Source of the DNA: Arthrobacter celericrescens
GTDB taxonomy: Bacteria; Actinomycetota; Actinomycetes; Actinomycetales; Micrococcaceae
DNA: 64,000 nt
NCBI RefSeq assembly: GCF_003614925.1
Contig: NZ_QYLP01000021.1
Coordinates: 62,001 to 126,000 of the forward strand
Direction of reading: 5' to 3'
Under the pieces are notes generated by a model. It made no database searches. It was not told the DNA's origin and was given only the letters and a program-made list of their open reading frames with translations. The position numbers and the translations under genes are program-made. This document shows, one piece after another, positions 7,555 to 58,335 of this stretch (the first letter of the stretch is position 1; every line of letters starts with the position of its first letter).

Positions 7555-8477
7555 ACACCACTCCGGAACTCCCGACGGCGGCCGGCACCTCCGCGGCCGT
7601 CCGTCCGCAAGAGCCGGGCTGGCCGCAGGGGGCGCGCTGCGCCGTCGTCGTCACCATCGACGTCGACGGCGACCTGCCCTTCCTGGCCCTCGACCCCGGG
7701 CACCGGGACCGCCTGAAGTCCCGTTCCGTGGGGCAGTACGGCCCGGACCACGGCGCCGCCCGGCTCCTGCGCGTGCTGGAGCGGCTGGGCGTGGCGGCCA
7801 GCTGGTTCGTTCCGGGGGCGATCGCGCAGCAGCACCCGGAACTGGTCCGGTCCGTGCTGGCCGGCGGGCACGAGCTCGCCTGCCACGGCATGCACCACCT
7901 GGACTTCGACGGTCTGGACCTCGACGCCCAGGTGGCGGAGATGCTCGACGGCGCCCGCGCGCTTCGGGAAGCGTCCGGTGCGCAGGTCCGCGGACTCCGC
8001 ACGCCCTCCGGCGAGTGGAAGCCCGGCTTCCCGGAGGCCATGGCCGCGGCCGGTTTCGAGTGGTCCTCCTCCCTGCCGGGCGACGACCGTCCCTTCCCGC
8101 TGGGCGACTCCGGCGTCCTGGAACTTCCCTTCCGCTACGAGCTGGAGGACCTGCAGTACCTGGGCTTCAACTTGGATCCGCCGTTCCCGCCCGGGCAGTC
8201 GCGCATCCAGAGCCTGGACGCCGTCCGGGACAACTGGGACATCGAGTTCGCCGCGGCCCGGCGCTTCGGCACCGTGCTCATACTCCGGCTCAACGCCGAG
8301 ATCATGGGCACCCCGGGGCGGGCGCGGCTGCTGGAGGACTTCCTGAGCTCCATCCTGGACTCCGGCGAGGCCTGGGTTGCCACCTGCGGCGAGCTTGCCG
8401 CTCACTGGGCCGGGCAACCGGTGGAAACGGACCACCCCTACCGCCGGTTCCTCGACCTGGCGCCACTGGAATCATGA
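7551..8477 (+). CDS. Polysaccharide-deacetylase-fold hydrolase, copy B
   Basis: A 308-residue paralogue of the preceding gene, starting in an ATGA overlap with it. It has VTIDVDGDLPF (D37, D39), HGMHH giving H112-x3-H116, and LRTPSGEWKPGF. The two copies share layout but differ in length and sequence, so they are not a recent duplication and may form a heteromer or act on successive substrates. It has no signal peptide. A cytoplasmic C-N hydrolase role is inferred from the PuuE-like branch and from the operon context. Confidence 0.85.
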   Translation: MNTTPELPTAAGTSAAVRPQEPGWPQGARCAVVVTIDVDGDLPFLALDPGHRDRLKSRSVGQYGPDHGAARLLRVLERLGVAASWFVPGAIAQQHPELVRSVLAGGHELACHGMHHLDFDGLDLDAQVAEMLDGARALREASGAQVRGLRTPSGEWKPGFPEAMAAAGFEWSSSLPGDDRPFPLGDSGVLELPFRYELEDLQYLGFNLDPPFPPGQSRIQSLDAVRDNWDIEFAAARRFGTVLILRLNAEIMGTPGRARLLEDFLSSILDSGEAWVATCGELAAHWAGQPVETDHPYRRFLDLAPLES

Positions 8478-9844
8478 CGACGGCGGCCCGCACCCAGGCG
8501 CCGCCGCTGGCCGTGCGTTTGGGGGATTGGGTGGCCGGGATGGCCAGCCAGCCGCTCTCCCCCGGGCAGGCCCGGAAGGCCTCCGACCATCTCCTCGACA
8601 CGCTCGGCGCCATGGTGGCCGGCCAGGACGAGCCCGCGGCCCAAGCCGCGCGTAAGGTGTTCCGCCGGCCCGGGCCGGTGCCGCTGGCCGGCGTCGCTGG
8701 TTTGTGGCATCACGGCGCCACCGTGGATCCGCTGGACGCCGCCTTCGTCAATGCCGTGGCCGCCCACTGCCTTGAGATCGACGACACCGAAGGTTGCGAC
8801 CACTCCGGTGCGGTGGTGGTCCCGGTGTTGCTTTCGCTTCTTCCTGCTGGGGACACGCCCGACGGCGGCGCCCGCCCGGGCGGGCGGCTCCTCCCTGCGC
8901 TGGTGGCCGGCTATGAGGTGGGACGCCGGGTGCAGCTCGCACTCGGCGGCTACGAGCGGCACAACGCCCGCGGCTGGCATTCGACGGCGACCTGCGGCGT
9001 GTTCGCGGCGGCGGCCGCCGCCTCGGTGATGCTGGGGCTGGACGGCCGGCAGTCGGCGTCGGCCTTGGGCATCGCGGCGAGTTCAAGCGCCGGCAGCTGG
9101 GCATTCTCCGCCGACGGCAGCATGACCAAGCAATTCCACCCGGGGAAGGCCGCGCGGGCAGGGCTTGAAGCCGCGCTCCTGGCGCAGGCGGGCGCGAGCG
9201 GTCCGCAGCAGGTGTTCGAGCCGGTGTGGGGAGGGTTCTTCGCCACCCACGGCGGCCCGGACGGCGCCGGCTCCGGCAAAGTGGAACCCGGTCTCCTAGT
9301 GGAAGGTTTGGGCTCCGTGTGGCACTTCGAACACTCGGCCATCAAGCCCTACGCCAGTTGCCGCAGCGCCCACTCTGCCATCGACGCATTCCTGGACATC
9401 CTCGCCGCGGAGGGCCTGGAGCCCGCGGATATCCGGGCCGTGCGGGTGCACGTCAACGACTTCCTGCGGCCCATGATCTGCCCGCCCGCGCCGGCGGACG
9501 CCGCCCAGTCCCGGATGAGCCTGTCGGTGTCCTTGGCGCTCTTGTGTGAGGGCAGGGAGCTGATGCCGGAGGACTTCAGGCACTTCGACAGCCCCGCGAT
9601 CTTGGAGCAGCTGGCGCGCATCGAGGTTGTGCGGGATCCGGAGGGCGGGCGCGAGCCGTTGGTGGAGGTCGTCACGGACAGCGGGACCTTCGCCTCGCGG
9701 GTGGAGCATGCCCGGGGCGGGGCAAGGCACCCCCTCAGCCCCGCCGAGGTGGAAGGGAAGTTCCGCCGACTCACGGCGGACCGCTTGGACGTGGCGCAGC
9801 AGGCGGAGTGGATCGCCTTTGCCCGGGACCTGCTCGCCTTTTGA
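8474..9844 (+). CDS. MmgE/PrpD family protein
   Basis: A 456-residue protein of the MmgE/PrpD family, whose known members are 2-methylcitrate dehydratase, cis-aconitate decarboxylase and iminodisuccinate epimerase. Visible blocks: ALSPGQ-like helix with DTLGAMVAG, NAVAAHCLEIDDTE (about 85-98), GYEVGRRV, RGWHSTATCGVFAAAAAAS (about 158-176), SMTKQFHPGKAARAG, and KPYASCRSAHSAIDA (about 291-305). The ATG at 8474 overlaps the preceding stop (ATGA). Beside an argininosuccinate-lyase-like enzyme, an epimerase or isomerase role on a C4-dicarboxylate derivative is more likely than methylcitrate metabolism, because no prpB or prpC is present. Confidence 0.87.
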   Translation: MTTAARTQAPPLAVRLGDWVAGMASQPLSPGQARKASDHLLDTLGAMVAGQDEPAAQAARKVFRRPGPVPLAGVAGLWHHGATVDPLDAAFVNAVAAHCLEIDDTEGCDHSGAVVVPVLLSLLPAGDTPDGGARPGGRLLPALVAGYEVGRRVQLALGGYERHNARGWHSTATCGVFAAAAAASVMLGLDGRQSASALGIAASSSAGSWAFSADGSMTKQFHPGKAARAGLEAALLAQAGASGPQQVFEPVWGGFFATHGGPDGAGSGKVEPGLLVEGLGSVWHFEHSAIKPYASCRSAHSAIDAFLDILAAEGLEPADIRAVRVHVNDFLRPMICPPAPADAAQSRMSLSVSLALLCEGRELMPEDFRHFDSPAILEQLARIEVVRDPEGGREPLVEVVTDSGTFASRVEHARGGARHPLSPAEVEGKFRRLTADRLDVAQQAEWIAFARDLLAF

Positions 9845-9877
9845 GCTGCCCGCCCATCGAAAACCGCCGCACCGTCC

Positions 9878-9936
9878 CAAATGTTGTTTGCCCGCCCAAA
9901 TTTGAGCGGGCAAACAACATTTCCTCAGGCGGAAGC
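9878..9936. repeat. Intergenic palindromic repeat, copy 2 (perfect 17-bp arms)
   Basis: Arms 9879-9895 and 9906-9922 are exact complements around a 10-nt loop containing AAATTT. The same sequence, less perfect, occurs at 1729-1787 with the same GGCGGAAGC flank. It lies between the convergent MmgE/PrpD and fructanase genes and probably ends transcription from both sides. Confidence 0.7.
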
Positions 9937-9956
9937 TTCCCAGCGAAGCTAAAACC

Positions 9957-12900
9957 TCAGAGCGGCGTGACCACCAGGTCCTGGTAGGCGGCGCGGCCGT
10001 CGAAAACGTTCACACCCACCTTTCCCGAACCAAACTGCGCGTCCGTGATGTCGATCAGCTGTGCGCCGTCCACGGAGACGGTGATCCGGTTCCCCTGGAC
10101 CGCCGAGTCCAACTGGTAGCTCACTCCCTGGGACAGGGCCAGCGGGACCTTCGCCAGGATGCCGGTGGTGGGGTTGAACACGCCGTTGACCAGCACAAAC
10201 ACCCGGACTTCGCGCAGGTTCGGGTCCAGGTTCACGTAGTACGCGCTGGATCCATCAGCGGACGACCGCAGCAGCACCGAACCCGCACCGCCGTAACCGT
10301 GCTCCGGGGCGAGGTCGCGGTTGCGCATGGCGCCCGCGAACGGCTCACCGCCGAAGCGCACCGCGGCCTGCACCCGCACGTCCGTGAACGACGACGGACT
10401 CATGGCCGTGGAGTCCTTGTCGAAGGTTCCGGCCAGCCCGGCACCCGTGCTTTCCCAGCGCCCGCCGGGCACCACCGAGTAAGCGCCCAGGTTGTGCCGG
10501 GCGCTTCCGGCCGCCGCAGGCAGCGGGGCCGACGGCGGAGCGGACGTCAGGCGCGCAGTGTCGCCGAGCTGGTGGACCTTGACCGAGACGAGCCGGGCAG
10601 CGCCGCCCGCTGCGGTGAAGGACAGCCCTGTGGAGGAAGGGTCCGGGAACACGTGGGAAGAGATCGACGCCGTCCCGTCCCCGCCGAAGACCTCCACCGA
10701 GGACGCGTCCACCAGGACCCTCAGCTTCACCCGTCGCTCGGACCCCACCACCGTGGAACTCCACGGCGCCGAGGAGTTATCAGCGGCGGTCCCGGCGAAG
10801 TAGCGCGTAAAGTCCTCCCGGCCGGAGCTGCCGCGGTCCAGCGTAAGAGTGCCCGCGCCGGCGTCGAACCTCACGGACGTTTCCTGCGCACCCGTGGAGC
10901 CGCTCCCCTTCCGCAGCCCGAAGGCGAAGGACGAGGCGCCGCCGGTGGAGGGCAGGCCCACCTCGGCCTCGAGCTCGAAGGAACGCCCGGATGCGGCAGC
11001 CAGCGGATTGGCCGAGCTCGGGGTCACGGTGACGTCCGAGGCCTGCCAGGTGGAAGACCGCAATGACTCTTCCTCCACCACCGGAGCCTGCGTCAGCCGC
11101 AGCCCGCTCCCGGCTATGTCCACCAGTTTCAGCTCGCGCGGGATGCTGAGCTGGCCGTTCCAGCGGCCCGTGGGCGGGCTGAACGCGTAGTCCCAGTTGC
11201 TCATCCAGCCGATCATGATCCGGCGGCCGTCCGGCGCGCCGAAGAAGCTCATGGCGGCGTAGTAGTCCCGGCCGTGGTCGGCCTCAAGCACCTGCGTTGC
11301 CGGAGTATCCGGGGTGAAGCTGCTGCCATTCCAGGTCCCGGTGACGTACTGCGCCGCGGAGCCGTTGGTGGCGCGCACCGCACCGGTGCTCCAGTACAGC
11401 ACCCAGCGCGAGGTCCCGGGCTGTCCCTCCACAGGCATCGAGAAGAAGTCAGGGCATTCGAAGACGCCGCCGCGCACCCAGTCGCCGTAGCCGAAGGAAC
11501 TGGCGAAGGTCCAGGACACCAGGTTGGTGGAGGTGTAGAAGCGGATGTGGTCGCCGGCGGCCACCACCATCACCCACTTGCCCGCAACAGCGTCCCAGCT
11601 GACCTTGGGGTCGCGGAAGTCCCAGCCTCCGTTTGCGCCGCCCGGGTTCTGCACCACGGGCGCTTCCTGGACCAGTCGCCAGGAGCGGCCCTTGTCCGAG
11701 CTGTAGGCGGCCCGGACGGACTGGTTGCCGTTGGGGGCGTCGTGGTTGAAGGAGGTGAAGAAGGCCACCAGTCCTCCACCGGACACACCGTTGAAGAGCC
11801 CGCTGGAATTGGACGCGTCCACCACGGCCGAACCGGACCAGGACTCCCCCGAGGCCAGGTGCGGCAGGGCGATGGGCAGTTGCTTCCAGTGGATGAGGTC
11901 GGTACTGACGGCATGCGCCCAGCGCCCGCGGTCCTGGTGGAAGAGGTGGTACTCGCCCGCGAAGTAGACCAGGCCGTTGGGGTCCGAGCTGCTGCCCGAA
12001 TTCTGCGAGTAGTGGTAGCCGGGCTGGTAGAGCCCGTTCATGTACTCCTCCACAGCGTCCACCCGGACGTTCTGGAACGTCGCGGACCCTCCGACCACCA
12101 CCAATGCCGCACCCGTCCCGGCGGCCGTGCCGGCGTTGCCATTTAGCACGGCCGTGCCATTTACCAGGACGCTCGCGGTGCTGCCCTGCAGTGTGAGCTG
12201 GACCCGGTTGAACGGGGACAAGGACGTCTGCTGTGCCGCGGTGAAGCTTCCCCCGGGCAGCGTTCCGGAGAGCAGGAGCGCGCCGGTGGCGCGGTTGTAC
12301 AGCTTCGCGGTCCCGGCGCCCGGGTCGATCCGCAATTCAGTGCCGCCGCTGCCGTCGGGATTGCTCCGGACCACCACCGAGGCGGTCGCCGGGGAGGCGA
12401 CGTTCAGGTCAAGGGAGGCGACGACGTCGGACGCCACCGCCGGGACGAAACGCACCGCGCTGCCGGACGACGCAGTCCCCCGCAGCCCGCGCGCGTCCGG
12501 CTCCCATGCACCGGAACCAACGCGCCAGCCCTGCAGCGACGATTCGAGCCCGCGCAGCGTCATGCCCTGGAAGACCGTGGTGCCGTTGTAGGACAGCAGG
12601 CCGACATTTCCGGAGCCCACGCTGGAGTCGGTGGCCGTGATGGACGGCATGGCCCCGTTGGGGTCCAGGAAATCGGTCTGCCAGTACACGGCCAGCTGCG
12701 TTCCGGTGGCGGTGACGCGCAGTCGGTAGACCTTGTTCAGGGTGATCGCCGTGGTGAAGGTCCCCAGGGTGGCGTTGTCCGAAACGCGGTAAAGCCGCAG
12801 CCGCCCCGCGTTCGGGTCCACCTCGGCGGCGTAACCGGAGGTGCCAGCGGCGTTGCTGCGGAACAGGACCGCCCCCACCCCGTAGGTGGAGGTGAGCTGG

Positions 12901-13673
12901 ATGTCGGTGGTGAAGTCGACGTCGGCGGGTGACTGCCCGGTGGCGACGGCGCGGACGTTGATGTCCGCCGGCGCGGCGCCCCGGAATCCGGTGGCGGTGG
13001 CCTGCCAGGCGGAGGCGGAGGACCCGGACCAGCCGTCCACGTTGGTGTCGATGGTCCGCACGCCCGGGGTGCCGAAAGCGACCGTGCCGTTGTAGGCGTG
13101 CAGGCCCACATGGCCGCTGTTGTAGCGGTGGTCCGTGGCGTCGATCCGCTCCACGCCGTCCACGGCCACGTAGATCCGCGGCCCGTCCACGTGCACGTCC
13201 ACGGTGTAGGACTGGCCGGTGTTCAGCGGCACCGAGGCCGGGGTGGTGATGTCCTGGCCGGTGGCCAGGTCGAAGAGCCGCACCCGGTCCAGGTTCGGAT
13301 CGATCGTGGCCGCATACCCGGCCCCCGCGTCGGGGGTGGCCCGGAAGACGAGCGCTCCGACCCCAAAGGGGGTTCCGGCGTCGACCTTTACTCCCGCGGT
13401 GTAGCGGGCCGTGCCCGCCACGAGCTGCTCGCTGATGGCCGCTGCGTTCTGCCCGGACTGCGCGACGGCGGTGTACCCGCCCTGCGAGGTCCGGGTCCAG
13501 CTGCCGCTGACGCCCACGGCGTCCGGCATGGCACTGGTGGTGCTGTTGAGGGTGACCGGGCTTGGGCCTGCTTCAGAAGGGCCGAGGGCGGCCGCGGGAA
13601 CAGCTGCCCCCGTTCCCGCGAAACCCACACCAAGGACTGCGGCCGTGAGGCCGGCAACTATTCTCTTGTGCAT
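9957..13673 (-). CDS. Secreted multidomain GH32 fructanase (levanase/inulinase type)
   Basis: A 1238-residue secreted enzyme: signal peptide (1-30, ending AALG), three related beta-sandwich modules (about 45-205, 215-375, 385-540), a GH32 catalytic region (about 550-1060), and a fourth module (about 1085-1238). GH32 residues are SSDPNG with nucleophile D564, FRDPK (686-690) and acid/base E739 in the ECPD box. The modules share a GxVGLxxYNGTxxF pattern typical of LamG or DUF1080-like carbohydrate-binding folds. It hydrolyses beta-fructans outside the cell and is the last gene of the LacI operon. No LPXTG or membrane anchor is seen at the C-terminus. Confidence 0.93.
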   Translation of the reverse strand: MHKRIVAGLTAAVLGVGFAGTGAAVPAAALGPSEAGPSPVTLNSTTSAMPDAVGVSGSWTRTSQGGYTAVAQSGQNAAAISEQLVAGTARYTAGVKVDAGTPFGVGALVFRATPDAGAGYAATIDPNLDRVRLFDLATGQDITTPASVPLNTGQSYTVDVHVDGPRIYVAVDGVERIDATDHRYNSGHVGLHAYNGTVAFGTPGVRTIDTNVDGWSGSSASAWQATATGFRGAAPADINVRAVATGQSPADVDFTTDIQLTSTYGVGAVLFRSNAAGTSGYAAEVDPNAGRLRLYRVSDNATLGTFTTAITLNKVYRLRVTATGTQLAVYWQTDFLDPNGAMPSITATDSSVGSGNVGLLSYNGTTVFQGMTLRGLESSLQGWRVGSGAWEPDARGLRGTASSGSAVRFVPAVASDVVASLDLNVASPATASVVVRSNPDGSGGTELRIDPGAGTAKLYNRATGALLLSGTLPGGSFTAAQQTSLSPFNRVQLTLQGSTASVLVNGTAVLNGNAGTAAGTGAALVVVGGSATFQNVRVDAVEEYMNGLYQPGYHYSQNSGSSSDPNGLVYFAGEYHLFHQDRGRWAHAVSTDLIHWKQLPIALPHLASGESWSGSAVVDASNSSGLFNGVSGGGLVAFFTSFNHDAPNGNQSVRAAYSSDKGRSWRLVQEAPVVQNPGGANGGWDFRDPKVSWDAVAGKWVMVVAAGDHIRFYTSTNLVSWTFASSFGYGDWVRGGVFECPDFFSMPVEGQPGTSRWVLYWSTGAVRATNGSAAQYVTGTWNGSSFTPDTPATQVLEADHGRDYYAAMSFFGAPDGRRIMIGWMSNWDYAFSPPTGRWNGQLSIPRELKLVDIAGSGLRLTQAPVVEEESLRSSTWQASDVTVTPSSANPLAAASGRSFELEAEVGLPSTGGASSFAFGLRKGSGSTGAQETSVRFDAGAGTLTLDRGSSGREDFTRYFAGTAADNSSAPWSSTVVGSERRVKLRVLVDASSVEVFGGDGTASISSHVFPDPSSTGLSFTAAGGAARLVSVKVHQLGDTARLTSAPPSAPLPAAAGSARHNLGAYSVVPGGRWESTGAGLAGTFDKDSTAMSPSSFTDVRVQAAVRFGGEPFAGAMRNRDLAPEHGYGGAGSVLLRSSADGSSAYYVNLDPNLREVRVFVLVNGVFNPTTGILAKVPLALSQGVSYQLDSAVQGNRITVSVDGAQLIDITDAQFGSGKVGVNVFDGRAAYQDLVVTPL

Positions 13674-13709
13674 TCAGATCGCCTTTGATCACGTTGTCAT
13701 GGAATCGAC

Positions 13710-13757
13710 TGCTGAGTAGTTGTCGTTCTGAGGGCTCAAAACGACAACTACTCAGCA
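13710..13757 (-). terminator. Strong hairpin between the two GH32 genes
   Basis: TGCTGAGTAGTTGTCGTT (13710-13727) is exactly complementary to 13740-13757. After one mismatch the stem continues with TGAG/CTCA around GG. It overlaps the stop codon of the upstream GH32 gene and lies 37 nt before the secreted fructanase. It may be an attenuator, an mRNA stabiliser or a dispersed repeat. No T-tract follows on either strand. Confidence 0.6.
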
Positions 13758-15316
13758 ATCGATGAAGGGAAAAGGACGCGTTCGCCTCCAAAGATCTCCC
13801 CCATGGTCCAGGCATCGAAGGACAGCAACCGCGCTGTTCCGGCGGTGGCCACCAGGGTGACGTTGCCGCCGTCGAGTACCGGGTACACGCGGGCGGTGAG
13901 CGGCTTGCCGTTCGCGAAGATCTCGACGGCGGAGCGGTCCACCAGGACGCGCAGGGAGACGCGCCCGCCGGGCATGGCCACTGGGCCTTCCTTGGGTTCG
14001 GTGTCGAGCCCTTCCTCTTCGGCGGCGATGCTGCTGCGGCTGCGGTCCAGCCGCAGCGTTCCGGAGGTGCCGTCCGGGTCCAGGGCCAGTTCGACGGCGG
14101 TTTCCTCGCGTCCGTCGTCGGAGCCAAACAGCCCGAGCCGCACTACCGAGCCGACGGACAGCTGGAGCTCAAGTTCCAGATCGAGCTGCTTGCCGGAGAT
14201 TCCGGTCTCCACTGGCGTGCCGGCACCCACCAACACCTGCCCCGGAACCTGGACATGTCCGGTCCGGAGCCGTTCCAGTTCCGGCACCGGCGCGAAAGAC
14301 AGCGTGCCGTCCTCGGCCAGGGTGGTCACGCGGGGCAGGCTCATCACCCCGGACCAGCCGGCTTCCACGGCGGTTTCCTCGGGCCGCCCTTCCTGCAGCC
14401 AGCCGAACATGATCCGGCGGCCTGACTCATCGAGGAAGGACTGCGGGGCGTAGAAGAACCGGCCACCGTAGTCGAGCCGGTGCAGGGCGGCGGGTTCGAA
14501 GGTGTCCCCGGAGTACCGGCCGCTCCAGTACAGCGGGTGGCGGGTGTCGCCGTCGTTCCAGGCGGAGAAGACCAGCGCATCCGGCGCCGCATCCTCCGAG
14601 GCACCGCCCAAAACACCTGCACCCGCGCGGAACAGGTCCACGCATTCCCACATGGTGCCGGTCCAGTCCGTGGCGTCCGGATCACCCGAGGCGTCGCCGA
14701 TGAACAGCGGGCCCACGTAGTCCCAGGAGCGCAGGTCCGCGGACTCGTAGAGGAACGCCGTGCCGCCGCGGCCGCGGATGCCCGAGCCCACCAGCTGCCG
14801 CCACATGGAACCCTCGCGCCACACGCAGTGGTCCCGGTAAGCGGTGATGTCGACGCCAGCCGGCGGGGCCGCGATCACCGGGTTTTCCGGGGCCTTGCTC
14901 CAGCTCAGCAGATCGGGCGAACCGACCGCCACGCAGGGCAGTTCGTGCTCGCCGTGTCGGCCGGAGTACACCAGGGTGGGCACACCGCCGTCGTTCACGA
15001 GGACGCCGGACCAGCAGCCGTCCCGGTCCGGATCCCCGGAACCAGACCCCGGCTCCAGCGCCACCGGCGCGTCCTCCCAGTGCACCAGGTCCGTGGAGAC
15101 CGCGTGGCCCCAGAGGATGCGGTGGTGGAAGGCCCCTTCCGGGTTGTATTGGTAGAAGAGGTGGTACGTGCCGTTCCACTGGCTGACGCCGTTGGGATCG
15201 TTGAGCCAGCCGGCCGGGGAAACGAAGTGGAAGCGGGGCCGGTGCGGGTCGGCCTCGGCGCGGGCCACGAGTTCGCCGCGGGGAACGGTGGCCAGCGGGT
15301 GCGTCAGTTCAGTCAT
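13748..15316 (-). CDS. Cytoplasmic GH32 beta-fructosidase
   Basis: A 522-residue protein without a signal peptide: five-bladed GH32 domain with WLNDPNG (nucleophile D40), RDH (161-163, transition-state stabiliser) and ECVD (acid/base E224), then a C-terminal beta-sandwich (about 365-515) with the usual SVEIF-like DRSAVEIFANG motif. It should release fructose from fructo-oligosaccharides or sucrose after import. Its ATG directly follows the DppF-like stop (TGAATG), so it is coupled to the transporter genes. Confidence 0.93.
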   Translation of the reverse strand: MTELTHPLATVPRGELVARAEADPHRPRFHFVSPAGWLNDPNGVSQWNGTYHLFYQYNPEGAFHHRILWGHAVSTDLVHWEDAPVALEPGSGSGDPDRDGCWSGVLVNDGGVPTLVYSGRHGEHELPCVAVGSPDLLSWSKAPENPVIAAPPAGVDITAYRDHCVWREGSMWRQLVGSGIRGRGGTAFLYESADLRSWDYVGPLFIGDASGDPDATDWTGTMWECVDLFRAGAGVLGGASEDAAPDALVFSAWNDGDTRHPLYWSGRYSGDTFEPAALHRLDYGGRFFYAPQSFLDESGRRIMFGWLQEGRPEETAVEAGWSGVMSLPRVTTLAEDGTLSFAPVPELERLRTGHVQVPGQVLVGAGTPVETGISGKQLDLELELQLSVGSVVRLGLFGSDDGREETAVELALDPDGTSGTLRLDRSRSSIAAEEEGLDTEPKEGPVAMPGGRVSLRVLVDRSAVEIFANGKPLTARVYPVLDGGNVTLVATAGTARLLSFDAWTMGEIFGGERVLFPSSIAE

Positions 15317-16369
15317 TCAGGAGACCTTGGATTCTACGAGGGCGTGGCCGGCCGAGCCGGCGGCGGGACGGTACAGGTGGCAGCGCACCCAATGGCGGTT
15401 GTCGGGGCTGCCCACCCGGTGGCGGACGGGATGCTCGGCGGAGCAGGGCTGTTCCGGGTCGCCGTCGAACGCACACGACGCCGGACTCATCACCGCAGCG
15501 CGCAGCTCCGCCCGGCGGACGGGGTCATAGGAGCCCGAACGCGCCGGATCCGGCACGGCGGAGACCAGCAGTTGCGTGTACGGATGGGCCGGGTTGGCCA
15601 GTAGGTCCAGGGACTCGCCTTCCTCCACGAGCTCACCGGCGAACATCACGGCCGTCCGGTCCGCGAGGTAGCGGGCGGAGGCGAGGTCGTGGGTGATGTA
15701 GAGCATGGAGATGCCCTGTTCGTCGCGGAGCTTGCGCATCAGGTTCAGGATCCCGATCCGCACCGAGACGTCCAGCATGGACGTAGGCTCGTCGGCGAGG
15801 ATCACCTGCGGTTCCACGGCGAGCGCCCGGGCGATGGCCACGCGCTGCCGCTGTCCGCCGGAGAGTTCGTGCGGGTAGGAGTTGAGCATGTCCGGCTGCA
15901 GGCCCACGGTGGTCATGAGCTCCTCGAGGCGGCGCTGGGTTTCCGTGGCGGAGCCGGCCTTGCCGTGGATGGCCAAGGAGCGGCGCAGGAAGTGCTCGAT
16001 CCGGTGGGCCGGGTTGAGCGAGCCGAAGGGGTCCTGGAACACCATCTGCAGCTGCGAACGGAACGCGCGGGAGGCCTGGAAGCGGTCGCGCTTGAGGACG
16101 TCGACGCCGTCCAGCAGGATTGCGCCGGAGCTCGGCTTTTCGAGGCGTGCCACGCAGCGGGCCAGGGTGCTCTTGCCGGAACCGGACTCGCCCACCAGGG
16201 CCACGATTTCGCCGCGGCCCAGGCTCAGGTCCACCTGGTGAAGGGCCCGGACGGACCTGCGGGAGAGCAGCCCGCCGATGGGGAAGGTCTTGCTGAGGCC
16301 GCGGATTTCCAGGGCTGGTTGCCCGGTTCCGGCGGCGGGCGCCGCGGCGCCCAGAACAGTGCTGCTCAT
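15317..16369 (-). CDS. Dpp/Opp-type ABC transporter ATP-binding protein (DppF-like)
   Basis: A 350-residue ATPase with Walker A VGESGSGKST, signature [15 protein letters not shown], Walker B ILADEPTSMLD and C-terminal oligopeptide-transporter extension (HPYTQLLVSAVPDP, then a CAFDGDPEQPCSAEHP segment with cysteines like those binding an iron-sulfur cluster in related ATPases). It overlaps the preceding ATPase gene by ATGA. Its place between permeases and GH32 genes argues that this peptide-type transporter carries fructo-oligosaccharides. Confidence 0.93.
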   Translation of the reverse strand: MSSTVLGAAAPAAGTGQPALEIRGLSKTFPIGGLLSRRSVRALHQVDLSLGRGEIVALVGESGSGKSTLARCVARLEKPSSGAILLDGVDVLKRDRFQASRAFRSQLQMVFQDPFGSLNPAHRIEHFLRRSLAIHGKAGSATETQRRLEELMTTVGLQPDMLNSYPHELSGGQRQRVAIARALAVEPQVILADEPTSMLDVSVRIGILNLMRKLRDEQGISMLYITHDLASARYLADRTAVMFAGELVEEGESLDLLANPAHPYTQLLVSAVPDPARSGSYDPVRRAELRAAVMSPASCAFDGDPEQPCSAEHPVRHRVGSPDNRHWVRCHLYRPAAGSAGHALVESKVS

Positions 16370-17328
16370 CGGGAGGCTCCTTCCAGGGCGGATCCGCCGG
16401 CCGCGCCGGCAGCGACACCAAACGGTGCCACGAAATGGCCGGGCGAGGCCTCGGCGAGGTCGGGGATGTTGCGGAACTTCACGCCGTCGGCCAGTCCCGC
16501 GAGCGGGACCCGCGGCCCGGTGAGCGGCGGGAAGGCGCCCATGAGGGCCTGGGTGTAGGGGTGCTGCGGGGCGGTGTGGATGTCCGCGGCTTTGGCGGTT
16601 TCGACGATCCGGCCGCCGTACATCACGGCCATGCGGTGCGAGAGCTCCACCATGAGGGACATGTCGTGCGTGATGAACAGGACGGAGAAGCCCAGTTCGT
16701 GCTGCAGTTCCTTGATCTGGGCCATGATTTCCTGCTGCACCACCACATCCAGCGCGGTAGTGGGCTCGTCCAGGATCAGCAACGACGGCTTGAGCGCCAC
16801 CGCCATGGCGATCACGGCCCGCTGCCGCATGCCGCCGGAGAGCTGGTGGGGGTAGGACTTCAGCCGCACCGGATCGATCCGCACCAGTTCCAGCAGTTCC
16901 GCGGCCCGGCGCAGCGATTCCTTGCGCGAGTAGCCGGCGTGGGTGGTGTAGATGTCCGTGATCTGTTCGCCGATGGTCAGCACCGGGTTGAGCGAGTTCA
17001 TGGCCGACTGGAACACCATGGCCACGTCCTGCCAGCGGAAGCGCCGCAGCTCCTCCGGGCCCATGGCCAGCACGTCCTTGCCGCCGAAGCGGATGCTGCC
17101 GCCGGCGATCTTCGCCGGGTCCTTGAGCAGGCGCATGATCGAGTTGGCGATGGTGGACTTGCCGCAGCCGGATTCCCCGGCCAAGCCAAAGATCTCGCCG
17201 GTGCCGATGCTGAAAGACACACGGTCGACGGCGGTGGTTGAGCGGGTGTCGCCCACGTACTTCACGGTGAGGTCCTTGACCTCCAGGACCGGCTCGTGCG
17301 AGCCGAAGGAGACCTGGGAAACAGTCAT
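16366..17328 (-). CDS. Dpp/Opp-type ABC transporter ATP-binding protein (DppD-like)
   Basis: A 320-residue ATPase: Walker A GESGCGKST, Q-loop VFQSAMNSLNPV, signature LSGGMRQRAVIAMA, Walker B LILDEPTTALD, H-loop ITHD, and the HTAPQHPYTQALMGAFPPL tail typical of DppD. It overlaps both neighbours by 4 bases. It pairs with the following ATPase to drive the two permeases. Confidence 0.93.
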   Translation of the reverse strand: MTVSQVSFGSHEPVLEVKDLTVKYVGDTRSTTAVDRVSFSIGTGEIFGLAGESGCGKSTIANSIMRLLKDPAKIAGGSIRFGGKDVLAMGPEELRRFRWQDVAMVFQSAMNSLNPVLTIGEQITDIYTTHAGYSRKESLRRAAELLELVRIDPVRLKSYPHQLSGGMRQRAVIAMAVALKPSLLILDEPTTALDVVVQQEIMAQIKELQHELGFSVLFITHDMSLMVELSHRMAVMYGGRIVETAKAADIHTAPQHPYTQALMGAFPPLTGPRVPLAGLADGVKFRNIPDLAEASPGHFVAPFGVAAGAAGGSALEGASR

Positions 17329-18347
17329 TTCGCTGCGCTCCTTTCAGGGTTGGCCGGGGTTACAGCGGCTTTGATTTTCCGCAACCGCGGATTGGTGACC
17401 TCATCCACGGCGTAATTGATAAGGGCCAAGGCGAAGGCGACCAAAGCGATACAGACACCGGATGGCACGAACACCCACCAGCTGCCAGTCATCAGTGCAC
17501 CCTCGTTGCCGGCCCAGAAAAGGTTGTTGCCCCAGGAGACGGTGCTGACGTCGCCCAGGCCCAGGAACTCCAGGCCCGCCTGCGCGCCGATGCCGTAGAT
17601 GACGCAGGCCAGCAGGGTGCCCATCACGATCGAGGCCATGTTGGGCAGGATCTCGCGGAACATGATCCGCCCGGCCCGTTCGCCGGACACCACGGCCGCG
17701 GCCACGAAGTCCTTGGAACGGATGGACAGGGCCTGAGAGCGCAGCACCCGGGCCGAGCCGGCCCAGCCGGTAACGATCAGCACCAGGATCACGGTGCCCA
17801 GGCCCGGCGGCAGGAACGCGGCCAGGATGACCAGCAGGGGCAGGCCCGGCAGGAGCAGGAACACGTTGGTGATCAGGGACAACGCCTCGTCGATGAACTT
17901 GCCGAAATACGCGGAGGCCAGGCCCACCAGGATGCCGACCAAGGTGGAGGCGAAGCCCACCGTGAGGCCCACCAGCAGGGAGCTGCGGGCGCCGTGGACG
18001 GTCAGGGCCATGACGTCCTGGCCTTTGGCGGTGGTGCCCAGCCAGTGCTCGGCGGAGGGTTCCAGGCTGGCCATGTCCGTGATGCGGGACGGATCGCCCG
18101 GGAAGAGCACCGGCGCCAGAAGCGCCAGCGCGATGAACACGAGCAGGATCGCGGCCCCCACCATGGCCTTCGGATTGGTCAGGAGCCCGTGGATGAGGCC
18201 CTGCCGCGGCTTGGGCGCGGGTGCGGAAGCGACGCCGGGTGCCGGAGCCCCGGTGGCGGGGGCCGGAGCCCCGGTGGCCGGGGCCGCCGTCGGGCTCTCC
18301 ACTACGGCGTCCGCCGCGGAAGGTGACGGATGGATGTAGGTAGTCAT
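17325..18347 (-). CDS. Dpp/Opp-type ABC transporter permease (DppC-like)
   Basis: A 340-residue permease with a proline/alanine-rich cytoplasmic N-terminus (1-45; TGAPAPATGAPAPG repeat), a first helix at about 58-78, five further helices, and the VLRSQALSIRSKDFVAAAVVSG EAA-loop region (about 213-234). GTSxxGQDVM-like LGTTAKGQDVMAL is present, as in DppC proteins. Overlaps the DppD-like gene by ATGA. Confidence 0.92.
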   Translation of the reverse strand: MTTYIHPSPSAADAVVESPTAAPATGAPAPATGAPAPGVASAPAPKPRQGLIHGLLTNPKAMVGAAILLVFIALALLAPVLFPGDPSRITDMASLEPSAEHWLGTTAKGQDVMALTVHGARSSLLVGLTVGFASTLVGILVGLASAYFGKFIDEALSLITNVFLLLPGLPLLVILAAFLPPGLGTVILVLIVTGWAGSARVLRSQALSIRSKDFVAAAVVSGERAGRIMFREILPNMASIVMGTLLACVIYGIGAQAGLEFLGLGDVSTVSWGNNLFWAGNEGALMTGSWWVFVPSGVCIALVAFALALINYAVDEVTNPRLRKIKAAVTPANPERSAAK

Positions 18348-54479: not shown

Positions 54480-54908
54480 ATGGGTGCATTCATCGTCCGT
54501 GTCCTGATCAATGGCCTGGCCCTCTGGGTGGCCGGCTGGATTCTTCCCGGCCTGGATATTTCCACCACGGCCACCAGCAACGCCGTGAACAATGCCGGCA
54601 TCACCCAGGGCGCCGACACTCTGGGGATCGTTCTTGCCTACCTGTTCATCGGCCTGATTTTCGGAGTGGTCAACGCCTTTGTCCGCCCCCTCGTGAAGCT
54701 GCTGTCCCTGCCGATCACCATCCTGACGTTGGGCCTTTTCACGATCATCATCAACGCGGCGATGCTGTACCTCACCGCGTTGATGAGCAGCTACACGCCG
54801 GTGCACCTGACCATCGATTCCTTCTTCTGGACGGCCATCCTGGCCGCGATCATCATCAGCGTGATTTCGATGGTTGCCGGCTGGATCCCCGGAGCCCGCC
54901 GCCGCTGA
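54480..54908 (+). CDS. Four-helix phage-holin-family membrane protein (PF04020 type)
   Basis: A 142-residue protein with four helices (about 4-25, 45-70, 78-100, 112-134) and the family motif NAFVRPLVKLLSLPITILTLGLFTIIINAAMLYL (about 63-96). Despite the family name these are chromosomal membrane proteins of unknown role across bacteria. It has no lysin or phage genes around it and is divergent from hisC. Confidence 0.9.
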   Translation: MGAFIVRVLINGLALWVAGWILPGLDISTTATSNAVNNAGITQGADTLGIVLAYLFIGLIFGVVNAFVRPLVKLLSLPITILTLGLFTIIINAAMLYLTALMSSYTPVHLTIDSFFWTAILAAIIISVISMVAGWIPGARRR

Positions 54909-54930: not shown

Positions 54931-56382
54931 CTACGGCCTCACCGCCAACCGGCCTCGGAGCGGTTTTCCCGGAACCGGGGGCTGTGGCGTCGGTGCGGGC
55001 ATTGCCTCGCGTGTGAGCTTGAACCTTGTCACCTTGGCGGGGACCTGGGTGGTGCGCCCGGCCGTCCCGAGCGCGCCCGCCACGACGGCAGCGGAAGCCA
55101 CCAAGGACGGGTCGCGGCTCGCGGCGACCCGTTCCGCGCCCTCCGCGTAGGTCTCCAATCGGTGCCCCGGGCCGAGGCCGGGATCTTCGCCCGCCGGTGT
55201 CTCAACAAAGTTGTCGAGCGTCACCGTCACCCGGTCCTTCGTGTCGGCGTTCGGGACGCCGTCATACCCCGGAACGAGGTCTTGGGTGTGCTCCAGATGG
55301 AGGCTGCTGATCCCGGGCCCGGGAGTGACCCCGCCCACCGGGGATCCGGCCGTGAAGACGTACTTGAGGTCGTATTCGGCCAGGAAGGCCTTGTTGGCCG
55401 CGAGGTTCATCGCGTGGACGCCGCCCTGGCTGTGACCGACCGCCACGACCTCCTGTCCGGGCTTGGCGCCTGCCTCCCGCAATGCCTCCTGGATGGCAGG
55501 GGTGAGATGGGCGGAGTTGTAGCCGAGGGCGTCGACGATGCCGCCTTCGTCGATGGGGTTGCTCCCGCCCGGCGGCTCTCCCTTTTGCGTCCCGGGAATG
55601 AGCACCACCCAGGCGATCCCCTTGTCCGGGCGTTCCACTTTGATGACTGCGATCTCCCCCTTCCCTGCGGCATGCAGATCCTCGTTGCGGCGCAGCAGGG
55701 CCGCGAGGGACAAATCGACGGTTTCATCCGTGGTTTCCACCTTCCGCGCTGCAACGGGCCGCGGTTTCAGGTACCCCAATCCGGGCACGGCCACGATGGC
55801 CAGGAGGATGGCCCGGACATCCGTCTGGCCGGCCACGGCGGCAGTCACCGGGGCAGTAAAGGCCGTCGGCAGTGAAAGGGATCCCGCGATGAGGGGAAGC
55901 TGCGCCACAAGATGTTCAACGCGGTCCCGGTCTCCATAGTGGGTTCCTGGCTTTGCCCCGACGAACAGCATGTTCGCCTCCAGCAGGGGTGGGTGCAGCA
56001 ACCCCACGCGCGTGGCGATGGCATTCCATGACTCGGTGTACTCATACTCGCGGTGGCTCGCCCGGACCTGTTCCGCGGTTGCCCGGATCGCGTCACGGAT
56101 GCGGGAGGCAGCCTGTACACCGTCGCCGACGGTGACGATTGCCGGGCCGCCGGTGGTCAGGGTGCGCAGTTCGGCAACGAAGAGTTCCTGGCGGACCGTC
56201 TCGGCTTCCATGACAACGGTGTCCAGTGTCCGGACCACGCCGTCCAAGGCGTTGGCTCCGGCCAGGAGCTCCTCAAACTGGAAACTGATTCCGCCAACAC
56301 CGCCACGGACCTTCAAGACCTCGTCCGCCGGCGGGTCGACGGGCCTGAGCACGTCACCGTCCTGCATGCGCATGGCGGACAT
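54931..56382 (-). CDS. Alpha/beta-hydrolase with an N-terminal helical secretion-type domain
   Basis: A 483-residue protein. Residues about 20-125 form a WXG/LXG-like helical bundle (FQFEELLAGANALDGVVRTLDTVVMEAETVRQELF, ATAEQVRASHREYEYTESWNAI). Residues about 265-400 form an alpha/beta-hydrolase core with nucleophile elbow VGHSQGG (about 338-344) and HLEHTQDLVPG downstream. No signal peptide is present. ATG 56382 overlaps the stop of the small upstream gene. The layout (small WXG100-like partner, then helical domain plus lipase-like enzyme) resembles proteins exported by type VII secretion, but no esx or ecc gene is in the window. Confidence 0.7.
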   Translation of the reverse strand: MSAMRMQDGDVLRPVDPPADEVLKVRGGVGGISFQFEELLAGANALDGVVRTLDTVVMEAETVRQELFVAELRTLTTGGPAIVTVGDGVQAASRIRDAIRATAEQVRASHREYEYTESWNAIATRVGLLHPPLLEANMLFVGAKPGTHYGDRDRVEHLVAQLPLIAGSLSLPTAFTAPVTAAVAGQTDVRAILLAIVAVPGLGYLKPRPVAARKVETTDETVDLSLAALLRRNEDLHAAGKGEIAVIKVERPDKGIAWVVLIPGTQKGEPPGGSNPIDEGGIVDALGYNSAHLTPAIQEALREAGAKPGQEVVAVGHSQGGVHAMNLAANKAFLAEYDLKYVFTAGSPVGGVTPGPGISSLHLEHTQDLVPGYDGVPNADTKDRVTVTLDNFVETPAGEDPGLGPGHRLETYAEGAERVAASRDPSLVASAAVVAGALGTAGRTTQVPAKVTRFKLTREAMPAPTPQPPVPGKPLRGRLAVRP

Positions 56383-56687
56383 CAGTAGCCCGCTCCTGCA
56401 GCAGCCGACGCCTTCGCCGCCTGCTGCAGCACTGTCGCAGAGGCCTCGCGCAAGGCATCGCGTGCCTTCCGCAGCTCTGCCACGTGGACGGCCACGACTT
56501 TCCTGTAGGCCCGGCCAGCCGGCGACTGCCATTGCCTCATCTGCACCTGGCCAAGCTGGGATAGCGCGGCATCCGCTTCATCCGCACACCGGGCCATCCG
56601 TGTGGCGAGTTGCCGGGCGTCGACGCCCTGTGGGACCCAATGCCCCGGATCAAACGGGGTATCCGCCGCAACCAAGGTGTTGGCCAT
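56382..56687 (-). CDS. WXG100-like small helical protein
   Basis: A 101-residue all-helical protein with QWQSPAGRAYR at about 53-63, matching the helix-turn-helix hinge WxSxxGxxxR of WXG100/ESAT-6-like proteins. Helix 1 is about 22-50 (DARQLATRMARCADEADAALSQLG); helix 2 about 58-95. It ends in an alanine-rich tail. Its stop overlaps the hydrolase start (TGATG), so it is probably the partner or chaperone of that protein. Confidence 0.7.
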   Translation of the reverse strand: MANTLVAADTPFDPGHWVPQGVDARQLATRMARCADEADAALSQLGQVQMRQWQSPAGRAYRKVVAVHVAELRKARDALREASATVLQQAAKASAAAGAGY

Positions 56688-56895: not shown

Positions 56896-58335
56896 ATGCC
56901 TGAAACCGCCGCCGCTGTTACCCGTACGCCCTCCGGACGCCTGGCCCTTGCCGCGTCGCCGGAGAAGATTGCCCTCGGCCCCCTGGACGGCCGTTACCAG
57001 TCCGCCATCGCACCGCTGGTCGATTACCTGTCTGAGGCCGCCCTCAACCGCGACCGCGTGGCCGTCGAGGTCGAATGGCTCATCCACCTGACCAGCAACA
57101 GCGTGCTGCCCGGCGCGGGCCCCCTGACCGCCGAACAGCAGGACAAGCTGCGCGGCATCGTCACCGAGTTCGATGCCGCCGCCGTGGCCGAACTGGCCGA
57201 GATCGAAGCCGTCACCGTGCACGACGTCAAGGCCGTCGAGTACTACATCAGCCGCCGCCTCCCGGCCATCGGCATCGAGAACCTGACCGCGATGGTGCAC
57301 TTCGGCTGCACCTCCGAGGACATCAACAACCTTTCCTACGCCCTGGGCGTCAAGGGCGCCGTGGAGGACGTCTGGCTGCCGGCCGCCCGCGCGCTGGTGC
57401 AGCAGATCGAAGCCATGGCCGAGGAAAACCGTGCCGTGCCGATGCTTTCGCGCACGCACGGACAGCCGGCCACCCCCACCACGCTGGGCAAGGAACTGGC
57501 CGTGATCGCGTACCGTCTCAGCCGCCAGCTGGACCGCGTCGCGAAGACCGAATACCTGGGCAAGATCAACGGCGCCACCGGCACCTACGCCGCGCACGTC
57601 GCCTCCGTTCCGGGCGCCGACTGGCAGTCCGTGTCCAAGTCCTTCGTCGAGGGCCTGGGCCTCACGTGGAACCCGCTCACCACGCAGATCGAAAGCCACG
57701 ACTGGCAGGCCGAGCTGTACTCCGACATCGCGCGCTTCAACCGGATCCTGCACAACGTCTGCACGGACATCTGGAGCTACATCTCCATCGGCTACTTCCG
57801 CCAGATTCCTGTCGCCGGCGCCACGGGTTCGTCCACCATGCCGCACAAGGTCAACCCGATCCGCTTCGAGAACGCCGAAGCGAACCTGGAAATCTCCAAC
57901 GGCCTGCTGGACACGCTCGCCGCCACCCTGGTCACCTCCCGCTGGCAGCGCGACCTCACGGACTCCTCCTCGCAGCGCAACATCGGCGTGGCATTCGGCC
58001 ACTCCCTGCTGGCCATTTCGAACGTCGCCAAGGGCCTGAAGGCGCTCGACGTCGCCGGGGACGTCCTCGCCGGCGACCTCGACACCAACTGGGAAGTCCT
58101 GGGCGAAGCCATCCAGATGGTGATGCGCGCCGAGGCCATCGCCGGCGTCGCAGGCATGGAAAACCCCTACGAGCGCCTGAAGGACCTCACCCGCGGACAC
58201 CGCGTTGACGCAGCCCGCATGCAGGAATTCGTCTCCGGGCTGGGCCTCTCGGCCGACGCCGAAGCCCGCCTCCTGGCCCTCACCCCCGGCGGCTACACCG
58301 GCATCGCGGACGAACTGGTGGACCACCTCAAGTAG
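56896..58335 (+). CDS. purB: Adenylosuccinate lyase
   Basis: A 479-residue enzyme of purine biosynthesis that cleaves SAICAR and adenylosuccinate, releasing fumarate. Blocks: TSEDINN (139-145), RTHGQPATPTTLGKEL (186-201, catalytic His188) and the signature loop GSSTMPHKVNP (311-321). It matches the long E. coli-type PurB. It has a short, weak ribosome site, and a 16-bp stem terminator follows. It is the second aspartase-superfamily member in the window beside the argH-like gene. Confidence 0.97.
   Translation: MPETAAAVTRTPSGRLALAASPEKIALGPLDGRYQSAIAPLVDYLSEAALNRDRVAVEVEWLIHLTSNSVLPGAGPLTAEQQDKLRGIVTEFDAAAVAELAEIEAVTVHDVKAVEYYISRRLPAIGIENLTAMVHFGCTSEDINNLSYALGVKGAVEDVWLPAARALVQQIEAMAEENRAVPMLSRTHGQPATPTTLGKELAVIAYRLSRQLDRVAKTEYLGKINGATGTYAAHVASVPGADWQSVSKSFVEGLGLTWNPLTTQIESHDWQAELYSDIARFNRILHNVCTDIWSYISIGYFRQIPVAGATGSSTMPHKVNPIRFENAEANLEISNGLLDTLAATLVTSRWQRDLTDSSSQRNIGVAFGHSLLAISNVAKGLKALDVAGDVLAGDLDTNWEVLGEAIQMVMRAEAIAGVAGMENPYERLKDLTRGHRVDAARMQEFVSGLGLSADAEARLLALTPGGYTGIADELVDHLK

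Follow-up and report, generated by a model that had tools for sequence, protein, structure and literature searches.

Two overlapping genes on the minus strand of a 64,000-nucleotide stretch of Arthrobacter celericrescens DNA (RefSeq assembly GCF_003614925.1, contig NZ_QYLP01000021.1, positions 62,001 to 126,000; hereafter the window) raise the question of whether an alpha/beta hydrolase with a predicted helical N-terminus leaves the cell together with its small WXG100-like neighbour and, if so, through which machinery and to what end. Most of what is known of type VII secretion comes from mycobacteria and from the interbacterial toxins of Bacillota. The initial annotation had read the two genes as a type VII enzyme with a WXG100-like partner, a proposal that is supported by an invariant YxxxE motif in the hydrolase and by the joint loss of the pair with one lineage of EssC-type ATPases (type B, or EssC-B, below). 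We consider it probable that a type VII secretion system (T7SS) has the products of the two genes as its substrates, the hydrolase being exported as a lipase-like enzyme together with its partner. Gene structure, predicted folds, motif conservation and joint presence and absence with EssC-B were observed, while translation coupling, complex formation, export, a lipid substrate and the physiological role are proposed by analogy to PE/PPE and Esx pairs. The features of the pair, in window positions, are the following:

56382..56687, minus strand: small WXG100-like partner gene, an open reading frame (ORF) of 101 amino acids (aa)
56502..56531, minus strand: hinge WxSPAGxAYR of the partner (W53-R62), from a 21-row alignment
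56380..56384, minus strand: TGATG stop/start overlap of the partner and hydrolase genes, from reading of the junction
54931..56382, minus strand: hydrolase gene, 483 aa, with an N-terminal helical hairpin, a variable linker, an alpha/beta hydrolase domain (~205-458) and a variable tail
55999..56289, minus strand: PE/EsxB-like helical hairpin, hydrolase residues 32-128, from structure prediction
56032..56046, minus strand: YxxxE motif (here YEYTE), Y113-E117, late in the second predicted helix, from alignment
55429..55431, minus strand: S318, putative nucleophile in GHSQGG (residues 316-321), 20/20 near rows
55279..55281, minus strand: D368, putative catalytic acid, 20/20 near rows and 40/41 family rows
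55162..55164, minus strand: H407, putative catalytic histidine, 20/20 near rows and 39/41 family rows

The YxxxE motif is invariant in all 20 near hydrolase rows. In the family alignment, Y113 is a tyrosine in 41 of 41 rows and E117 a glutamate in 40 and an aspartate in one, placing YxxxD/E at the end of the hairpin in every row counted; its peers in conservation are D368 (40 rows) and H407 (39 rows), and the next-best residue of the N-terminal part is G27 (37 rows). This alignment was drawn from 145 loci, 135 of which yielded a hydrolase frame by motif search, giving 116 unique rows; the 41 counted comprise the remote rows obtained and one in six of the near rows, with the window's protein among them. 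The ten loci dropped for want of a frame (nine of 35 remote, one of 110 near) all hold a YxxxE candidate in a fitting place, which is weaker evidence because these candidates were selected by the pattern itself. According to PMC7028111, PMC9600955 and PMC3935865, export in mycobacteria requires that the hairpin of one partner carry at its C-terminal end a YxxxD/E, which sits close to the other partner's WxG. Judged from the aligned sequences, the hydrolase hairpin appears variable nearly throughout save for this type VII motif, which is the pattern expected from selection for export.

The initial annotation had tied the reading to the presence of secretion genes, and these were found in the genome: a canonical WXG100 protein that scores over its cut-off and two large EssC-type ATPases with FHA and FtsK/SpoIIIE domains, besides FtsK, so that both an EccC/EssC-type ATPase and a WXG100 protein accompany the pair. 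We labelled the two ATPases type A and type B, names coined in this analysis. Type A lies on contig C68 beside a gene for a PP2C-type phosphatase and another FHA protein; EssC, FHA protein and phosphatase stand there in a row, in what looks like a second type VII-like cluster (L041, genome G000, 8128-17877). Type B lies on contig C40 (L042, 10299-14417). Clustering by BLAST of the neighbours in nine EssC-B loci (L312-L319 among them) found a small ORF in 9/9, GlfT2-like and PdtaS-like proteins in eight each and a Glf-like protein in six, the Glf, GlfT2 and PdtaS labels being confirmed by Pfam at one locus; seven of the nine loci also hold what we take to be ABC-transporter-like genes, and seven what are presumably WhiB-like genes. 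The small ORF had no Pfam match in the two loci scanned. The position of EssC-B beside glf and glfT2 points to a possible link between type VII secretion and galactan export.

Presence of the pair in other genomes was read at the purB locus, because the hydrolase profile both misses pairs and catches fusions. The pair is flanked there by two genes:

56896..58335, plus strand: purB (adenylosuccinate lyase; PF00206 and PF08328), divergent, upstream of the pair, a locus marker outside the system
54480..54908, plus strand: PF04020 small membrane-protein gene, convergent, downstream of the pair, a constant neighbour probably outside the system

Five of the 197 family genomes (G135, G177, G217, G241 and G258) are without a match of EssC type (E <= 1e-30), and in each of them a domain search found one FtsK and no other such ATPase. 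WXG100 proteins are missing in the same five, and among the 23 genomes searched for them only G264, which is 71% complete, is likewise without. None of the five carries the pair at the purB locus: the neighbour of purB is PF04020 in G177 and G241 and, in G135, G217 and G258, a gene presumed to be aminotransferase-like, which follows PF04020 in the window. Seven more genomes without the pair (G226, G195, G125, G153, G176, G231 and G244) do have an EssC, and none of the 11 rows that they contribute to a 48-protein EssC tree falls within the type B clade. This clade comprises 29 rows (100 in the Shimodaira-Hasegawa-like approximate likelihood ratio test, SH-aLRT), 25 of them from pair-bearing genomes and four from genomes of unverified pair status; the partner gene was also seen in G124 and G117, where the first motif search had missed it. 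In a tally of 38 genomes, pair and EssC-B are both present in 25 and both absent in 12, the pair occurs without EssC-B in one, and EssC-B without the pair in none (Fisher p 4.8e-9, uncorrected for kinship). On a tree of 39 purB proteins, the pair-less state amounts to five changes in four genera, at least four of them forced by supported branches; G101, G104, G124, G145 and G089 are in the tally and outside this tree. Short, weak FtsK-like matches in G176 (a frame of 773 aa), G105 (743) and G115 (915) were kept out of the EssC tree, and in pair-less genomes a pair that had both moved and diverged beyond the profile would be missed. Taken as a whole, the type VII reading appears well supported by the comparative evidence.

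Two simpler ways of counting were tried and set aside. Taking any EssC as the apparatus was too coarse: the raw counts give nine genomes with an EssC-type match and without a hydrolase profile match, of which, after reading of the loci and typing of EssC, G106 and G158 have the pair, and G125, G176, G226, G231 and G244 are without type B, which leaves G116 and G264. The profile itself (E <= 1e-10) finds the hydrolase in 184 of the 197 genomes and in all 32 genera, and it is imperfect in both directions, missing the pair in G106 and G158 and catching fusions in G241, G195 and G153 (genus g26). Equating every profile match with a pair was therefore rejected, the matches in these three being single-chain WXG-hydrolase fusions away from purB. 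In these loci (L128 in G195, L129 in G241, L131 in G153) a WXG-like N-terminal stretch is fused to a similar GHSQGG hydrolase, and G241 carries its fusion without any EssC or WXG100 match.

The partner has the size and shape of the WXG100 superfamily, with 101 aa and a predicted helix-turn-helix hairpin. In the AlphaFold2 model, built on a 21-row alignment (mean predicted local distance difference test, pLDDT, 77), helices span residues 14-51 and 56-99 and the hinge lies in the turn. Residues W53, S55, P56, A57, G58, A60, Y61 and R62 of this hinge are invariant in 21/21 rows, including all four positions (W53, S55, G58 and R62) of the WxSxxGxxxR hinge that the initial annotation had pointed out. 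Relative to a W-x-G turn, the tryptophan is invariant but the third residue is serine in all 21 rows; W-x-G itself occurs at the same place in some other genera (G105, G106, G136 and G158). When the model was searched with Foldseek, the first 31 of 50 rows were all chains of EsxA, EsxB or EsxEF type (probability 0.99-1.00, query TM-scores 0.57-0.71, E 0.09 and above), among them B. anthracis EsxB, S. aureus EsxA and M. abscessus EsxEF. Sequence profiles gave less: the window's partner misses the TIGR03930 cut-off (17.2 bits vs 44.85) and that of Pfam T7SS_signal (17.9 vs 27 bits), a family matched by nine of the 21 members at E <= 0.01 (best 1.2e-5); it has no PF06013 match at E up to 1, a family matched by one of the 21 (E 0.0011); and a search of solved structures with the partner's sequence profile returned no match. 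Because the curated cut-offs are missed, we call the partner WXG100-like and do not file it as a WXG100 member.

The hydrolase model (AlphaFold, mean pLDDT 69) has a hairpin of two helices (32-74 and 79-128), followed after a linker of low confidence by an alpha/beta hydrolase at ~205-458, in agreement with the helical N-terminus followed by a GHSQGG hydrolase that had been recognised at the outset. S318, D368 and H407 follow, in the model, the strands expected of a catalytic triad, in Ser-Asp-His order; the presence of S318 in 41/41 family rows is not independent, since the rows were chosen by the GHSQGG motif. The hydrolase part was matched to B. subtilis LipA (probability 0.97, E 5e-3), and structural re-alignment placed phospholipase A1 and fungal class 3 lipases at the top with Z 8-9.3, the best alignment being moderate (Z 9.3 over 182 residues, root-mean-square deviation 4.3 A). 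By sequence, the protein misses the cut-off of PF01764 (Class 3 lipase; 13.4 vs 22 bits), and PF08237 matches 5/20 members weakly (best E 0.0085) and the window's own hydrolase not at all at E up to 1. The hydrolase profile found only SNAP-25 coiled coils among solved structures (E 0.13-1), which was of no use, and an NCBIfam scan of the pair gave sub-threshold matches only.

Both ORFs lie on the minus strand where they had been placed initially, the small one at 56382-56687 and the large frame open to 56532. The 533-aa ORF that begins at 56532 was considered as the hydrolase gene and rejected in view of the conserved overlapping ATG at 56382. The stop codon of the partner and the ATG of the hydrolase share one base (TGATG in 29/30 loci and TAATG in 1/30, the window's own counted), and because this overlap is conserved in 30/30 loci we define the large gene as 54931-56382, 483 aa. 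With 80 named loci added to the 30 the overlap is exact in 100 of 110; by this one-base stop/start overlap, the two genes form a putative operon.

Partner, hydrolase and PF04020 are present in all of these 110 Arthrobacter/Pseudarthrobacter loci, in which some genomes are counted twice, and purB is nearby in 108. Every one of the 101 genomes sampled from the genus, that of the window among them, yielded the hydrolase, so that the idea of an enzyme new for the genus gives way to that of a core gene. The nearest named match, in A. silvisoli NEAU-SA1, shows 84% identity in the hydrolase. In many genera the pair stands next to purB, to PF04020 or, between them, to both, with identities far under those of the flanks; across the 110 loci, median identity to the window is 49% for the hydrolase and 44% for the partner, against 91% for purB and 78% for PF04020. 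In two pairwise comparisons the ratio of non-synonymous to synonymous substitution (dN/dS) was 0.20-0.21 in the hydrolase gene and 0.30-0.45 in that of the partner, from which both genes appear to evolve fast and yet under constraint. The pair is thus beyond chance, since it is found in all 110 loci with dN/dS of 0.20-0.45. Overall, the putative lipase pair appears to be core in Arthrobacter and widespread in its family.

An immunity-type gene, which had been suggested as something to look for in relatives, is absent between the hydrolase and PF04020: the distance from the hydrolase stop to the PF04020 stop is below 250 nucleotides in 107/110 loci, leaving no room for one there. PF04020 was itself tried as an immunity protein and rejected, given that it still adjoins purB in seven of the 12 genomes without the pair and changes slowly (median identity 78%). 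The effector reading, taken as antibacterial, accordingly finds no support in this locus. The PF04020 gene is named as a 4-TMS (four-transmembrane-segment) holin family member, and it seems likelier to encode a housekeeping membrane protein than a phage holin.

A mechanism can be outlined along the lines of the PE/PPE and Esx pairs. The overlapping genes would let partner and hydrolase be made together, and the partner and the N-terminal hairpin of the hydrolase would form a four-helix bundle in which the WxSPAG turn of the one and the YxxxE of the other may jointly form the signal for export, in line with proposals made for PE/PPE and EsxA/EsxB pairs. The type B EssC (FHA plus FtsK/SpoIIIE), whose gene lies at another site of the chromosome, would recognise this composite signal and export the pair. 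Outside, the hydrolase may act through S318, D368 and H407 as a serine hydrolase resembling class 3 lipases and phospholipases, with lipids of the envelope or of the environment as its likely targets, as a housekeeping enzyme and not as a toxin that kills rivals. The hydrolase is thus best read as an envelope lipase, core to the genus, that would leave the cell along with its partner; it does not read as an accessory toxin, because it occurs in all 101 genus genomes, at a fixed locus, with no room for an immunity gene before PF04020 in 107/110 loci. A housekeeping role in the envelope fits both this wide presence and the glf/glfT2 neighbourhood of EssC-B. More tentatively, and with a little less than even confidence, we propose that EssC-B, whose gene has glf and glfT2 (galactan) as well as transporter, whiB-like and pdtaS genes as conserved neighbours, has the purB-linked lipase pair as its main core cargo, its job being the routine upkeep of envelope lipids or galactan-lipids and not warfare.

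Several points weigh against the pair being a type VII substrate. Neither window protein reaches the cut-off of any curated profile, the AlphaFold models were built on 20-21 sequences with a mean pLDDT of 69 for the hydrolase, and the fold matches from which we infer lipase activity are moderate. EccB, EccD, EccE and mycosin are all missing among the few Pfam-scanned neighbours of two EssC genes, no genome-wide search having been made. G101 has the pair, seen beside PF04020 (its purB lies outside the stretch read), yet its only EssC is of another type. Co-occurrence with EssC-B is in itself no proof of export, and the 38 genomes are a non-random set in which the pair-less ones were sought out, the pair-bearing ones were picked from many genera and nine were omitted: G113 (type B; pair not at purB), G232 (type B; pair by profile only), G116 (type B plus another EssC; neither a purB nor a profile match), G270 (one EssC inside and one outside the type B clade; pair unchecked), G264 (71% complete, with a small gene at purB and EssC untyped), and G174, G207, G127 and G129 (pair seen; EssC-B not in the tree).

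These points leave room for other explanations, the least favoured of which is that the two proteins are a cytoplasmic enzyme and its helical-bundle partner that are never exported, the YxxxE and the WXG-like turn being structural. Helical hairpins are common, and no curated type VII profile is passed; nevertheless, a purely structural role sits badly with a YxxxE that is as invariant as the catalytic residues while the rest of the hairpin diverges, and some five separate joint losses with EssC-B lack a ready explanation under it, so that we regard it as very improbable. It is improbable, to a lesser degree, that the link to EssC-B merely reflects streamlining or lineage history, the pair being exported by another EssC or by any. 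The type A EssC of the own genome, the retention of the pair in G101 with only a non-B EssC, and the placement of six of the 12 pair-less genomes in one genus, g26, would all agree with such a history. Seven of the 12, however, do possess a non-B EssC and are still without the pair; the pair-less genomes are spread over four genera; and they are not the smallest (2.2-3.8 Mb), the pair being kept in genomes of 2.0-2.5 Mb (G102, G158 and G199).

The remaining alternative, an antibacterial lipase toxin delivered to rivals by type VII secretion in the manner of TslA, draws on the resemblance of the domains to known type VII toxins and on the fast divergence of the pair (medians of 49% and 44% against 91% for purB in the 110 loci). 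TslA has, according to passages of PMC10730906, an adjacent immunity lipoprotein and further locus copies that vary between strains, whereas the hydrolase here occurs in 101 of 101 genus genomes and keeps the same position in all 110 loci read. In 107 of these the space before PF04020 is too short for an immunity gene, the gap between purB and the partner not having been examined for such genes, PF04020 is kept in seven of 12 pair-less genomes, and dN/dS in the two comparisons is 0.20-0.45. We therefore judge a toxin to be quite improbable, and prefer a substrate pair with a housekeeping lipase.

Established type VII lipases do carry helical targeting domains, as passages of PMC7028111 describe for LipY and related PE/PPE hydrolases and passages of PMC10730906 for TslA. 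The PE proteins of the LipY/PF08237 kind, exported by ESX-5, share with our pair a hairpin that ends in YxxxD/E, a partner with a W-turn and a C-terminal hydrolase, and mycobacterial PE/PPE hydrolases have been proposed to serve envelope homeostasis or the uptake of lipids (passages of PMC7028111). They differ in that the PPE domain has ~180 aa against ~100 aa in the partner here, and the ATPase here bears FHA domains, is EssC-like and is encoded elsewhere; nor has the PF08237 cut-off been shown to be reached (best E 0.0085). The TslA/TlaA1/TlaA2/TilA system of S. aureus (T7SSb) likewise combines a type VII lipase with a Ser-Asp-His triad, a helical targeting domain and small helical partners, but its helical domain is C-terminal and it has two partners, an immunity lipoprotein and strain-dependent extra copies (passages of PMC10730906), whereas here the helical domain is N-terminal, the partner is single and no immunity gene precedes PF04020. 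LXG effectors with Lap1/Lap2 (T7SSb) resemble the pair in having an N-terminal helical domain, partners of a WXG100-like kind and, within the complex, a signal of F/YxxxD/E type; in the system studied in passages of PMC9600955, the signal is an FxxxD in the Lap1 partner and the toxin C-termini vary, while here it is the enzyme that carries the motif, and its C-terminal domain does not vary. An FHA domain in an EssC-type ATPase is also found in T7SSd of Olsenella and Bifidobacterium, which passages of PMC11217815 describe as a gene cluster that includes a kinase, TsdH and TsdI; EssC-B has other neighbours in the nine loci, which were partly Pfam-scanned and in which TsdH and TsdI were not searched for.

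The same survey of type VII variants names, in passages of PMC11217815, T7SSa and T7SSd for Actinomycetota, and "Arthrobacter" and words beginning with "Micrococc" are absent from its main text. Among the matches listed in the open-licence PMC literature there was no paper on such a type VII system in Arthrobacter, Micrococcaceae or Micrococcales, which is no proof of absence from print, and neither this pair nor the EssC-B lineage was found among them, PMC3796261 and PMC9495620 being unrelated in the passages concerned.

If the substrate reading is true, the pair would offer a lab-friendly model in which to study what type VII lipases do as housekeeping enzymes, with related genomes with and without the system at hand as a comparison set. 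Scattered type VII substrates might also be found through invariant YxxxE hairpins and joint loss rather than through gene clusters. The interest lies less in the enzyme than in its clean joint loss with one EssC lineage, through which the idea of type VII secretion as housekeeping can be put to a direct test in a common genus of the soil.

Three longer proteins of the own genome have weak WXG100 N-termini (L044, 5900-6970; L045, 6259-7770; L046, 5525-6502), and the one in L045, which is on the same contig as the window, has a sub-threshold match to DUF2515. Around the WXG-type protein of L044 (5224-8599), three short ORFs share YTxxE(W/Y)G and a lower third-position GC; with hydrophobic segments visible by eye, they are possibly repeated immunity genes of a polymorphic toxin.

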